Shown here piece after piece: positions 60,011-64,000 of a stretch of DNA of 64,000 nucleotides (within the stretch, counting starts at the first letter, position 1; every line of letters begins with the position of its first letter). The notes beneath the pieces were generated by a model, which saw nothing but the letters and a program-made list of their open reading frames with translations, searched no databases and had not been told where the DNA came from. The DNA is from Synechococcus sp. CS-1330 (GTDB lineage: Bacteria; Cyanobacteriota; Cyanobacteriia; PCC-6307; Cyanobiaceae): the NCBI GenBank assembly GCA_025128025.1, contig JAHLYR010000047.1, forward strand, positions 62,001 through 126,000. Reading direction: 5' to 3'. Both the position numbers and the translations under genes were made by a program.

Positions 60011-61132
60011 CTACGGATCGGTGGTCGAGCCCTGGAGCCCATTTACATAGAAGGTGGCAACTTCACCAAGCCCCTTGGCCTGCACCAGTCCGCGGGACTC
60101 CAGAGCGAAATCGTTGCCCAGCAACTCGGCGGTCTGGGCGGAGATATGCACTCTCCCCGGGGTGCCACTGGATTCCATGCGGCTGGCCACATTCACCGAG
60201 TTGCCCCACAAGTCGTAGGTGAATTTGTGCTTGCCAATCACCCCGGCGACCACCGGGCCGCTGTGAATACCAATCCGCATCATCAGATCGGTGCTGTGGG
60301 CTTCGTTGAAGCGCGCCATCGCCTCGAGCATGAGCAAGGCCGTTGCCACAACGGCCTTGGCATGGTCGTTGCGCGCCTCCGGCAGCCCTCCCGCCAGCAT
60401 GTAGCAATCGCCGATGGTCTTGATTTTTTCGAGCCCTGCCTGCTCTACCAACTGGTCGAATTCCGAGAACAGGTTGTGCAGTACCTCGACAAGTTGGCCG
60501 GCAGTCATGCCCTGGGACATCTTCGTGAATCCAACTAGATCGGCGAAGAGAACGGAGACATTGGCGTGGCTGTCGGCGCAGCGATGCTCCCCCCCCTTGA
60601 GGCGTTCGGAGATCGCGACTGGCAGAATATTGAGCAGCAGCAGTTCAGATTTTTCCTGTTCCTGAATCAGCCGCAGGTGTTGGGATTCGAGTTGTTTGCG
60701 CTGATTGATTTCGATGTCACGCAGCTTTTTTTTCTCGAGGGATGAGGTGAGTCGGGCCCGCAATAGCACCTGGCTGAAGGGTTTGGGGAGATAGTCTTCC
60801 GCCCCCATCTCAATACAAGAAACCACCTCTTCGATCGCCTCTCCACCGGAAATCACGATCACCGGTAGGTTCCTCAGCTCCGGATTGGCCTGCATGCGGG
60901 CCAGCACGGCCAGGCCATTCATCTGGGGCATTTCCATATCTAGCAGCATCAGGTCAAATGCCTCCTGCTCGAGGCGCTCCAGGGCGTGCTGACCATCCAC
61001 GGCTTCCTCAATCTGCTCAACCCCCAGTTGACGCAGCGAGCGGGCGATGCCCATGCGCAGCATCTTGCTGTCGTCCACTATCAGGATGCGGGCATTGCTG
61101 AGCAGGTCTGTTTCGGGGATTGTCACGGGCAA
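60011..61132 (-). CDS. REC-adenylate cyclase (class III) response regulator
   Basis: 373 residues from TTG 61132; GTG 61126 (start of VTIPETDLL) is an alternative. N-terminal REC: ILIVDDSKMLRMGIARSL, phospho-Asp in LMLLDMEMPQMNG. Linked by a coiled coil (SSLEKKKLRDIEINQRKQL) to a class III cyclase: metal Asp in VLFADLVGFTKMSQG, the adenine-reading Lys and second metal Asp in EKIKTIGDCYM, and YDLWGNSVNVASRMES with the adenine Asp and transition-state Asn/Arg. The Lys/Asp pair points to cAMP, not cGMP. It is the last visible gene of the chemosensory operon, 30 bases after cheB. Confidence 0.93.
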   Translation of the reverse strand: MPVTIPETDLLSNARILIVDDSKMLRMGIARSLRQLGVEQIEEAVDGQHALERLEQEAFDLMLLDMEMPQMNGLAVLARMQANPELRNLPVIVISGGEAIEEVVSCIEMGAEDYLPKPFSQVLLRARLTSSLEKKKLRDIEINQRKQLESQHLRLIQEQEKSELLLLNILPVAISERLKGGEHRCADSHANVSVLFADLVGFTKMSQGMTAGQLVEVLHNLFSEFDQLVEQAGLEKIKTIGDCYMLAGGLPEARNDHAKAVVATALLMLEAMARFNEAHSTDLMMRIGIHSGPVVAGVIGKHKFTYDLWGNSVNVASRMESSGTPGRVHISAQTAELLGNDFALESRGLVQAKGLGEVATFYVNGLQGSTTDP

Positions 61133-61162: not shown

Positions 61163-62227
61163 TCAGCTCCTGAGCTGATTGAGGTTGTCCACGATGGCTT
61201 GGGGCATCGACTGCAGAGAGACGCTGCGGTCGACCACCCCCAGAGCAACGGCGGCCCTGGGCATGCCATAGATGACGCTGCTGGCTTCGTCTTGGGCCAG
61301 GGAGCGGCCCCCGGCCTCTTTGATCGCTTGTAGCCCCCGGGCGCCATCGCTGCCCATGCCGGTTAGCAGCACCCCCAGGGCGTGGGGGCCGGCGGCGGCG
61401 GCGGCCGAGCGGAACAGCACATCCACGGCTGGTCGGCAGTGGTGCACAGGCGGCGTCTGGATCAGGCGCACTCGATAGTTTCCCTGTTTGACGATCATCA
61501 TGTGATAGTCCCCAGGAGCGATTAGACAAACGCCGGGCAATAAGGGGTCGTTGTCAGAAGCCTCCTTCACTTCGAGGCCACTGAGGCTGTTGATGCGCTC
61601 CGCTACCGCCTTGGAGAAGTAGGCCGGGATGTGCTGCACCACGGCGATGGGCGGCAGGTCCGCCGGTAGGGCCGGCAGGATGTAGCGCAGGGCCTCCACC
61701 CCCCCGGTGGAGGAGCCGATGATCACCAGCCGCCGGTCCGATGGGCTCAGTGGTGAGCCGCTGCTGGGGCGAAAGGATTGGCGTTGCTGGGGTGCCGGCA
61801 GGGCAGATAGGTCTCGGCGGGCTTTGGCGGCAGCCTTGACGTGGTATGCCAATTTCCCCGCTAGGGCGCCGATGGAGCTGCTGCCGTCCGGTTTGGCCAG
61901 CACTTCCTTGGCCCCGGCTTCCATGGCATCGAGGGCAAGCTTGGATCCGTGCTGGGTGAGGGAGCTGATCACCACAACAGGGATGGGTGAATTTTCACTC
62001 TTGAGTTTGCGCAGGAATGTGAGGCCATCCATGCGCGGCATCTCCATGTCCAGGGTCAGAACATCGGGCTGCAGCTTCGGAATTTTGTCGATGGCGATCA
62101 GCGGATCATTGGCCACTCCGACCACCTCGATTTCGGGGTCCATCTGCAGAGTGTCTGTGATCGTCTTGCGCACGAGGGCAGAATCGTCGATCACGAGTAC
62201 CCGAATTTTGCGTCTCATGGCGAGCAT
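61163..62227 (-). CDS. cheB: Chemotaxis methylesterase/glutaminase CheB
   Basis: 354 residues from ATG 62227; ATG 62218 (MRRKIRVLVI) is also good and TTG 62236 is possible. REC domain IRVLVIDDSALVRKTI with phospho-Asp in VLTLDMEMPRMDG, linker, and the esterase domain with the triad Ser in GSSTGGVEAL, His in VVQHIPAYFSKAVA and Asp in LLTGMGSDGARGL. It removes methyl groups from receptor glutamates for adaptation. cheR precedes it by under 25 bases. Confidence 0.97.
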   Translation of the reverse strand: MLAMRRKIRVLVIDDSALVRKTITDTLQMDPEIEVVGVANDPLIAIDKIPKLQPDVLTLDMEMPRMDGLTFLRKLKSENSPIPVVVISSLTQHGSKLALDAMEAGAKEVLAKPDGSSSIGALAGKLAYHVKAAAKARRDLSALPAPQQRQSFRPSSGSPLSPSDRRLVIIGSSTGGVEALRYILPALPADLPPIAVVQHIPAYFSKAVAERINSLSGLEVKEASDNDPLLPGVCLIAPGDYHMMIVKQGNYRVRLIQTPPVHHCRPAVDVLFRSAAAAAGPHALGVLLTGMGSDGARGLQAIKEAGGRSLAQDEASSVIYGMPRAAVALGVVDRSVSLQSMPQAIVDNLNQLRS

Positions 62228-62239
62228 GTTTGGCAACGG

Positions 62240-63112
62240 CTAGGTGTTACGCCGATAGACGCCGCCACCCAAGGGTGTGAAGTCATGCCGGAAACAATTA
62301 AGGCTATCGGAGTGACCAACGATAAGGAAGCCGCCTCGGGTTAACATGCTGTGAAGGCGAGCAACGAGTTGTGCCTGGGATTCCTGCTCGAAGTAGATTA
62401 GAACATTGCGGCAAAAGATGAGGTGAAGAGGCTGGGGCAATGGATAGCTTTTTTGAAATAGATTAATTTGCTGAAATTTGACGTGTTTAAGGATCTCTGG
62501 CTTAACTCTGCATTTGCCTTCGTAGGGTCCGCTGCCTCGTTTGAAATAGCGTCGCAGCCACTCAGGGTTGGGCAGATTGAGGTTGCTACTGGGATAAATT
62601 GCAGCCTCTGCAACCTTCAGGGTTTTACGCGAGATATCGCTGGCGTAAACCATCCAATCACTGGGAGGTCCAGGGCGCTGGCTGAAATGCTCTTTGATTG
62701 TGATGGCGAGAGAAAATGGCTCTTCCCCGGATGAACTCGCGGCAGACCAGGCTAAAAACTTTGTGGCGGCACCACCGCATTCCTTGAGAATGGTATCAAT
62801 AATTTCCGACTTTAGGCGATCGAAATGAAGATTTTCTCGGAAAAATTGAGTGTGATTGGTAGCTATTAAATCGATCAATATTCCCAGTTCTTCTCCCTTT
62901 TGATTCTTGCTGAGATGCTCATAGTAGGCATCCCATGATTTGATGCCTAGATGTTGACGTCTGCTGTTGAGTCGGCTGACCAGCATGGACTGGCGGTTGG
63001 CTCCTAGATAGATGCGGCTGTGGCGGAAGATGAGGTCGCAGAGGCTCCGATAGGTGGCCTCAGACATGGTTGCATCTGTTGTCGCCTGTCCACCTCTGGC
63101 GTCGACAACCAT
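62240..63112 (-). CDS. cheR: Chemotaxis protein methyltransferase CheR
   Basis: 290 residues. SAM motif WSAASSSGEEPFSLA (the usual GCSTGEE is changed to ASSSGEE), YASDISRKTLKVAEAAIYP, and the motif LIFCRNVLIYFEQES are all present. The beta-subdomain reads RRYFKRGSGPYEGKCRV, much like the pentapeptide-binding part of enteric CheR (RGTGPHEG). The start ATG 63112 overlaps the TGA of the upstream MCP gene (TGATG); ATG at residue 16 is an alternative. It methylates the MCP. Confidence 0.96.
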   Translation of the reverse strand: MVVDARGGQATTDATMSEATYRSLCDLIFRHSRIYLGANRQSMLVSRLNSRRQHLGIKSWDAYYEHLSKNQKGEELGILIDLIATNHTQFFRENLHFDRLKSEIIDTILKECGGAATKFLAWSAASSSGEEPFSLAITIKEHFSQRPGPPSDWMVYASDISRKTLKVAEAAIYPSSNLNLPNPEWLRRYFKRGSGPYEGKCRVKPEILKHVKFQQINLFQKSYPLPQPLHLIFCRNVLIYFEQESQAQLVARLHSMLTRGGFLIVGHSDSLNCFRHDFTPLGGGVYRRNT

Positions 63113-64000
63113 CAGTAGTCGCTGAAGTGGTCGTCCAAACTACCTCCCCCCAAGCCACCTTGATCTGGGGTTGCTTTTCTGGGATGGCGAGAGCCCCCGG
63201 TTTTGCCGACTTCCCCTGCGCTTCCTGCCGATGAGGATGGTTCGGTAGTCGATCCATCGATGACTTCCCGCAGTTGGGAGGTGCTTTGACGCTGCAAGGC
63301 TGCCTGTCGCCTCATCTCTTCCGCTGCACTGGCGATTTGCTCGGTATTGGCGGCACTGGATTGTGCAACTTTGCTCATCTCCTGGATCGCTGAGGTGATG
63401 TGTTCGATGCCTTGGGCTTGCTCCTTAGCTGCCATGGCAATCTCCGATACTAAATTGTCTGTTTCCTTCACTTTGGTGCCGATCTTGGTGAACGAATCCC
63501 CCACTCCTTGCAGACATCTTGCACCTTGACGGCTGCTTTGGATTGAGGCTTCTATCTTGGTAGCTGATTCGTGGGCTGCTGCTGCACTGCGTTGGGCGAG
63601 GGATCGCACCTCTTCCGCTACCACGGCAAAACCGGCGCCGGCTTCACCGGCTCGCGCAGCTTCCACGGCGGCATTAAGGGCAAGGATGTTAGTTTGAAAA
63701 GCAATTTCATCAATGCTTTTGACGATTTTTACCACTTCGTTACTGGAATGCTCGATAGCTGCCATGGCTTCTGTCATCTCCTGCATGCCGGCCATTCCTT
63801 CTTTGGCATTCGCCTGAGATTCGCTGGCTAAGTTTTTTGCATGATCAGCATTGCGAGCGGAGGAATGGATCATGCTCGACATCTCCTCCAAGGAAGCACT
63901 AGTTTCTTCAATGGCAGCGGCCTGCTCGCTCGCCCCTTCGGCTAAGCGGTTGCTGGACTCAGCGATCTGGATAGAGCCCTGTAGAAATTCATCCGCACCA
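63112..64000 (-). CDS. Methyl-accepting chemotaxis protein, C-terminal part (cut by window edge)
   Basis: The frame is open to the right edge. The visible part is the signalling coiled coil: [20 protein letters not shown], an adaptation helix ([20 protein letters not shown]), the highly conserved hairpin tip [20 protein letters not shown] with [19 protein letters not shown], the return helix and a Ser/Gly-rich flexible tail. The tail ends in DDHFSDY. The last five residues fit the CheR-tethering pentapeptide consensus (x-aromatic-x-x-aromatic). The sensor domain lies outside the window. Confidence 0.96.

Follow-up and report, generated by a model that had tools for sequence, protein, structure and literature searches.

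The window analysed here, a stretch of 64,000 nucleotides from Synechococcus sp. CS-1330 (genome coordinates G000:C65:62001-126000), ends within a chemosensory gene cluster encoded on the minus strand. In the order of transcription, the cluster comprises genes for an MscS-type channel with a cyclic-nucleotide-binding (cNMP) domain, CheA, the chemoreceptor MCP2, CheW, a second chemoreceptor (MCP1), CheR, CheB, and a protein joining a receiver domain to a class III cyclase; the first four lie immediately outside the window. CheA has Hpt, dimerisation, ATPase and CheW domains. In the host genome, that of a photosystem-II-bearing cyanobacterium, this cluster holds all the MCPs (two) and the single CheA and CheW genes.

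The 3' part of the MCP1 gene (63112..64000, minus strand; Pfam MCPsignal 1.6e-41) encodes the signalling domain, a linker and a short tail. Its frame (63112-63999) runs open at the window edge, and the complete gene (L003:5113-6714, minus strand), which extends to contig position G000:C65:126713, encodes a protein of 533 amino acids with a match to the MCPsignal domain at E 5.7e-41. Downstream on the same strand are the genes for a CheR methyltransferase (62240..63112, 290 aa; Pfam CheR 2.1e-52, CheR_N 1.3e-12), with Salmonella CheR (1AF7/1BC5) as its best solved match, for a CheB methylesterase with receiver and CheB_methylest domains (61163..62236, 357 aa; Pfam 2.7e-63, 9.5e-23), and for a putative receiver-adenylate cyclase (60011..61132, 373 aa; Pfam Guanylate_cyc 6.7e-61, Response_reg 6.4e-29). 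A previous sequence-only reading had noted that the MCP and CheR genes overlap, and indeed one base of the sequence TGATG is common to the MCP1 stop codon TGA (63114-63112) and the CheR start codon ATG (63112-63110).

MCP1 terminates in the residues DDHFSDY. The last five of these (HFSDY, 63115..63129, minus strand; the preceding DD at 63130-63135) form a predicted CheR-binding tether end, which fits the consensus x-[HFYW]-x-x-[HFYW], as the earlier reading had proposed, and also satisfies the stricter xZxxZ (Z = F, W or Y). The criteria of Perez and Stock (2007) are used here in the form in which they are relayed by PMC2577667 and PMC7390727. Between the end of the signalling domain (...VIDGS) and DD-HFSDY lies the remaining unstructured linker (63136..63249, minus strand), for which conserved columns are absent from the orthologue alignment. 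This linker had been described as long and Gly/Ser-rich, which is correct for MCP1 (16 Gly or Ser in the 40 residues past IDGS, DD included) but does not extend to the orthologues. MCP2 (L003:7359-9038, 559 aa) has the C-terminus NIDAHFSDY after a linker unrelated to that of MCP1, and both MCPs of the genome therefore end in HFSDY. No HAMP domain was detected in either receptor, and in both the signalling domain follows almost immediately after the second membrane helix. Relative to MCP1, MCP2 has two additional, matched segments of 14 residues, which flank the hairpin on either side.

The CheR encoded next to MCP1 contains the beta-subdomain loop RGSGPYEGKCR (residues 192-202; 62507..62539, minus strand), a predicted tether pocket corresponding to R187-R197 of the Salmonella enzyme. 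The likeness of its RGSGPYEG segment (residues 192-199) to the enteric RGTGPHEG, pointed out in the earlier reading, was borne out by an alignment to 1BC5, in which the loop aligns with Salmonella RGTGPHEGLVR without a gap; in the same alignment, P. aeruginosa CheR1 is three residues shorter at this position. The predicted structure of the window CheR (mean pLDDT 91) has 1BC5, the complex of CheR with NWETF, as its top match (Z 32.6, rmsd 2.0 A over 269 residues); 5Y4S and 5FTW rank below it, and Foldseek agrees. The pentapeptide contacts of CheR have been reported as Q182, R187, G188, G190, G194 and R197 in Salmonella numbering (PMC2577667). Five of these six residues are present in the window CheR, with Q182 replaced by R, and every orthologue has at least four. 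An MCP-CheR fusion considered for a docking model was dropped because the frames of the two genes do not join naturally.

A CheR of the cluster type was detected in six of 400 genomes of the host's family, counting the query genome (G000, with G126 and G195 from the same genus, and G239, G360 and G372), and the gene order CheA ... CheR-CheB-receiver-cyclase is common to all six clusters. The orthologous clusters of the five further genomes hold seven further MCPs, all of them tailed, so that D-[DEA]-[HQ]-F-[SRG]-[DN]-[YF]-stop is the end of all nine cluster MCPs; the orthologous tails include YDEHFSDY (twice), LDDQFGDY and VDAHFRDF (twice). The linker spans 28-45 residues past the conserved DG[ST], and an alignment of the nine MCPs shows zero conserved linker columns from DG[ST] to the final D, with the D and F of the tail invariant. 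Codon differences in the tail are mostly synonymous (TTC/TTT, CAC/CAT, AGC/AGT, GAC/GAT, TAC/TAT). The motif is found at none of the ends of 148 background ORFs (expected rate 0.0066 at local composition). An MCP search of the 400 family genomes returned 23 ORFs, with the tail in 9/9 cluster MCPs and 0/14 others, although these counts are not independent of phylogeny. Most of the 14 untailed MCPs end in SRFHVAN or a similar sequence, and two stray ones in ESRPRPLR.

The beta-subdomain loop has the full length of Salmonella CheR in all six cognate CheRs, and it is 3-4 residues shorter in all CheB-CheR fusions compared and in three CheR-TPR-type enzymes of the family. Loop length, R187, G188 and an R or K at position 197 (Salmonella numbering) are invariant across the six. 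The GxGPxEG pattern, which the sequence-only reading had offered as a marker of such enzymes and which is not a published defining feature, proved less constant: G000, G360 and G372 retain it, but it has given way to RGRDIYES in G126 and G195 and to RGLKSYTG in G239, so the pocket chemistry may differ in these three genomes. The co-occurrence predicted for relatives was nevertheless found at the level of the loop. Tail and full-length loop are present together in all six genomes with the cluster and both absent from the family's other chemosensory system, and receptors without the tail beside a CheR retaining the insert, the pattern named beforehand as contrary evidence, were not seen in this clade. 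In the one cluster of that second, unrelated system that was examined (L065, G279:C48), a CheR-TPR is encoded together with a CheA-REC hybrid, and SRFHVAN is the end of the MCPs. The stray third MCP of G126 and G195 (L058 and L059; G126:C44:14384 and G195:C1:2044256) has 515 aa, the end ESRPRPLR and no tether tail; being accompanied by a tether-type CheR, it would need to be methylated by another route or not at all.

We consider HFSDY to be a CheR-tethering pentapeptide, with a probability of roughly 0.88. Binding is predicted from three features visible in the sequence, namely the tail, the fact that it is conserved, and the correspondingly long loop in the beta-subdomain of the cognate CheR, which support the interpretation first put forward in the sequence-only reading. 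Counted against it are the F at position 2 of the tail, where W is commoner, and the replacement of Salmonella Q182 by R in the window CheR. By homology to the Salmonella CheR-NWETF complex, the two aromatic residues of the free C-terminus (F, and Y or F) would dock on the CheR beta-subdomain beside R192 and R202, and the flexible linker of 28-45 residues would keep CheR at the receptor array. The tethered enzyme could then methylate the conserved E-E/E-Q pairs of neighbouring receptors; all nine receptors contain three canonical Glu/Gln pairs in heptad register, or close variants, which represent candidate methylation sites. CheB would demethylate the receptors and may be aided by the tail as well, and its presence in the cluster together with CheR means that both arms of adaptation are encoded. 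The adapted receptors would set the activity of CheA, which presumably phosphorylates CheB and the receiver-adenylate cyclase. The output would then be cAMP, possibly read by the MscS-type channel with its cyclic-nucleotide-binding domain, and a flagellar output is not expected.

It is improbable that the tail mainly serves CheB, recruiting or activating the methylesterase with little or no use by CheR. The CheB gene does sit in the same cluster as the tailed MCPs, and CheB also binds the pentapeptide in E. coli and in the case of P. aeruginosa CheB2 (~93-160 uM), but this is far weaker than CheR-pentapeptide binding where both have been measured, and CheB has no diagnostic sequence feature (PMC7698151), whereas the published signature on the CheR side is present in 6/6 genomes. 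Less probable again is a role of the tail as a signal outside adaptation. Protease, polar-localisation or PDZ-type recognition can rely on short, conserved acidic-aromatic C-termini, and with GxGPxEG decayed in three genomes the link of the tail to CheR is looser; however, the tail is restricted to MCPs with a long-loop CheR in their own cluster, being found in none of the 14 other family MCPs or the 148 background ORFs, and its position, spacing and aromatic pattern fit the tether consensus. A chance likeness to a short and loose consensus, expected at random in ~0.7% of proteins, has a negligible probability and was rejected, as the conservation pattern already refutes it: nine of nine orthologous and paralogous receptors are tailed despite scrambled linkers, with synonymous codon changes. 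Coding constrained by gene overlap was likewise rejected because MCP1 and cheR overlap by one base and MCP2, with no cheR after it, has the same tail.

The proposed tether resembles that of the E. coli and Salmonella receptors Tar and Tsr, in which an aromatic-x-x-aromatic pentapeptide (NWETF) follows a flexible linker, there of ~35 aa, and is bound by CheR (1BC5). The loop of the window CheR shares its length and R187, G188, G190, G194 and R197 with the Salmonella enzyme, consistent with the fold similarity (Z 32.6). In contrast to the enteric system, F and Y replace W and F, Q182 is R, HAMP domains were not found in the receptors, CheY is missing from the cluster, and the apparent output is a receiver-adenylate cyclase rather than the flagellar motor. 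An F/Y-type pentapeptide (EFEKF) with a cognate CheR (group B) in the cluster is also known for the class 34H MCPs of Geobacter (PMC2577667). The Geobacter (Desulfuromonadales) clusters, however, are of the flagellar type, and the lengths of MCP1 and MCP2 are consistent with classes 36H and 40H, respectively, as a length estimate only. Pentapeptides have been reported as confined to classes 34H and 36H, with xF/YxxF/Y assigned to the former and xWxxF to the latter (PMC2577667). In the Che2 pathway of P. aeruginosa, CheR2 and McpB (GWEEF) likewise pair one CheR with the tailed receptors of its own cluster (PMC7698151), an arrangement that would insulate the pathway from other CheRs. Unlike in Che2, the tailed receptors of the host strain are the only receptors of the cell, and insulation is therefore not needed there; it would be needed in relatives that also hold the CheR-TPR system or an untailed MCP.

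The receiver-cyclase is the most likely output of the pathway, since its gene closes each of the six clusters, the cluster contains no CheY and the catalytic residues of the enzyme are suitable. Elsewhere in the genome there are receiver frames of 134 and 165 aa, the size of stand-alone proteins. In an alignment with AC5 and AC9 (motifs FADLVGFT, KTIGD, YDLWGNSVNVASRM), the cyclase has the metal-binding Asp residues and the adenine-specifying Lys (in KTIGD) and Asp (in YDLWGN), which fit an adenylate cyclase, and no other Pfam class III cyclase is encoded in the genome (a single PF00211 match). Gene order and these residues point to cAMP as the product. Receiver-cyclase outputs and multidomain receiver-cyclase response regulators are known from clusters of the ACF pathway (PMC3447774), although the ACF clusters of that study were chosen for CheR-TPR, whereas the host CheR is of the pentapeptide type without TPR.

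The MscS-cNMP channel gene at the head of the cluster (L003:11498-12979, minus strand) adjoins CheA in G000, G126 and G195, all of one genus, and no other cNMP-binding match in the host genome is as strong as that of its product. Directly 3' of the cluster in G195 (L036:13253-16860), a second MscS-cNMP gene overlaps the gene for a further nucleotide cyclase, suggestive of a cyclase-channel pairing that recurs. The channel possibly reads cAMP. The genome's other cNMP-binding proteins inspected were NtcA, two small stand-alone domains, a glutaminase-like protein and a longer exporter-looking protein, and no clear CRP-type cAMP receptor was recognised among them by eye. In Synechocystis, cAMP controls piliation and motility via SYCRP1 (PMC4284465). 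With this precedent, and because type IV pilus ATPases are encoded in the genome, pili represent an alternative target of cAMP. The cluster thus likely serves adaptation in a chemoreceptor-to-cAMP pathway. A more specific proposal, which we put forward tentatively and regard as rather doubtful, is that in this presumably non-flagellated picocyanobacterium tethered methylation adapts the array, with cAMP from the only class III cyclase as direct output read by the cluster's own MscS-cNMP channel. If true, a second messenger would place turgor or the flow of ions across the membrane under chemoreceptor control.

Most known cases of tethered adaptation come from flagellated proteobacteria, and a link with host association has been proposed. 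The mechanism itself is already known; the host and the apparent output are unusual, and the lineage is little studied. In these small-genome cyanobacteria, both halves of the tether have been conserved although the sequences have diverged widely, indicating that the tether persists in a setting with cAMP as the apparent output, and the cell's only Pfam class III adenylate cyclase appears to be controlled by adapting chemoreceptors. With two receptors, one CheR, one CheA and one CheW, the system is far simpler than that of E. coli, which makes the chemistry of the tether and the drift from RGTGPYEG to RGRDIYES testable.

The KEGG name cheBR denotes a CheB-CheR fusion, a different protein from the CheR described here. 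For this reason, the 'cheBR' of a freshwater picocyanobacterial ecotype (PMC11316352) was not counted as a prior description. Pentapeptide receptors have been reported from 11 phyla and make up about 10% of receptors, with Oscillatoriales listed at 0.5% of 402 (PMC7390727). The statement that no description exists for this lineage accordingly stands for picocyanobacteria, for which none was found in the literature searched, and needs qualification for cyanobacteria at large, given the Oscillatoriales entry in that survey.

A scan of genome contigs with the single CheR sequence as query retrieved no relatives, and a query built from the CheR alignment retrieved named relatives that are only distant (30-39% identity). 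In a quick tree of 129 CheR sequences, the six cluster CheRs form one clade (SH-aLRT 100), nested in a branch (SH-aLRT 96) shared with the Salmonella enzyme and the majority of long-loop CheRs; this branch contains no further CheR of oxygenic cyanobacteria. Their placement suggests that the tether-type CheR was acquired from outside the oxygenic cyanobacteria. The other oxygenic cyanobacteria among the best matches (L155, L157, L158 and L160-L178) have a short CheR loop; in one genome from a different class of the phylum (G508, L150), the loop is long and an MCP ends in SDFVRF.

Among 60 distant loci, a long loop is accompanied by an HFYW-type tail in 23 and occurs without such a tail in another 23. 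A general rule equating the long loop with an HFYW tail was rejected as too loose, and the argument for a tether therefore rests on the family itself. This looseness is due in part to alphaproteobacterial MCPs, which account for many of the cases without an HFYW-type tail and have other ends of a D-x-D-F-like type, such as DDxDFRESA. Alphaproteobacterial MCPs encoded beside long-loop CheRs (L076, L080, L108, L120, L127, L142 and others) show D-x-D-F-R-E-S-A-like ends, and their sequences suggest a separate class of tether motif overlooked by xZxxZ-based surveys.
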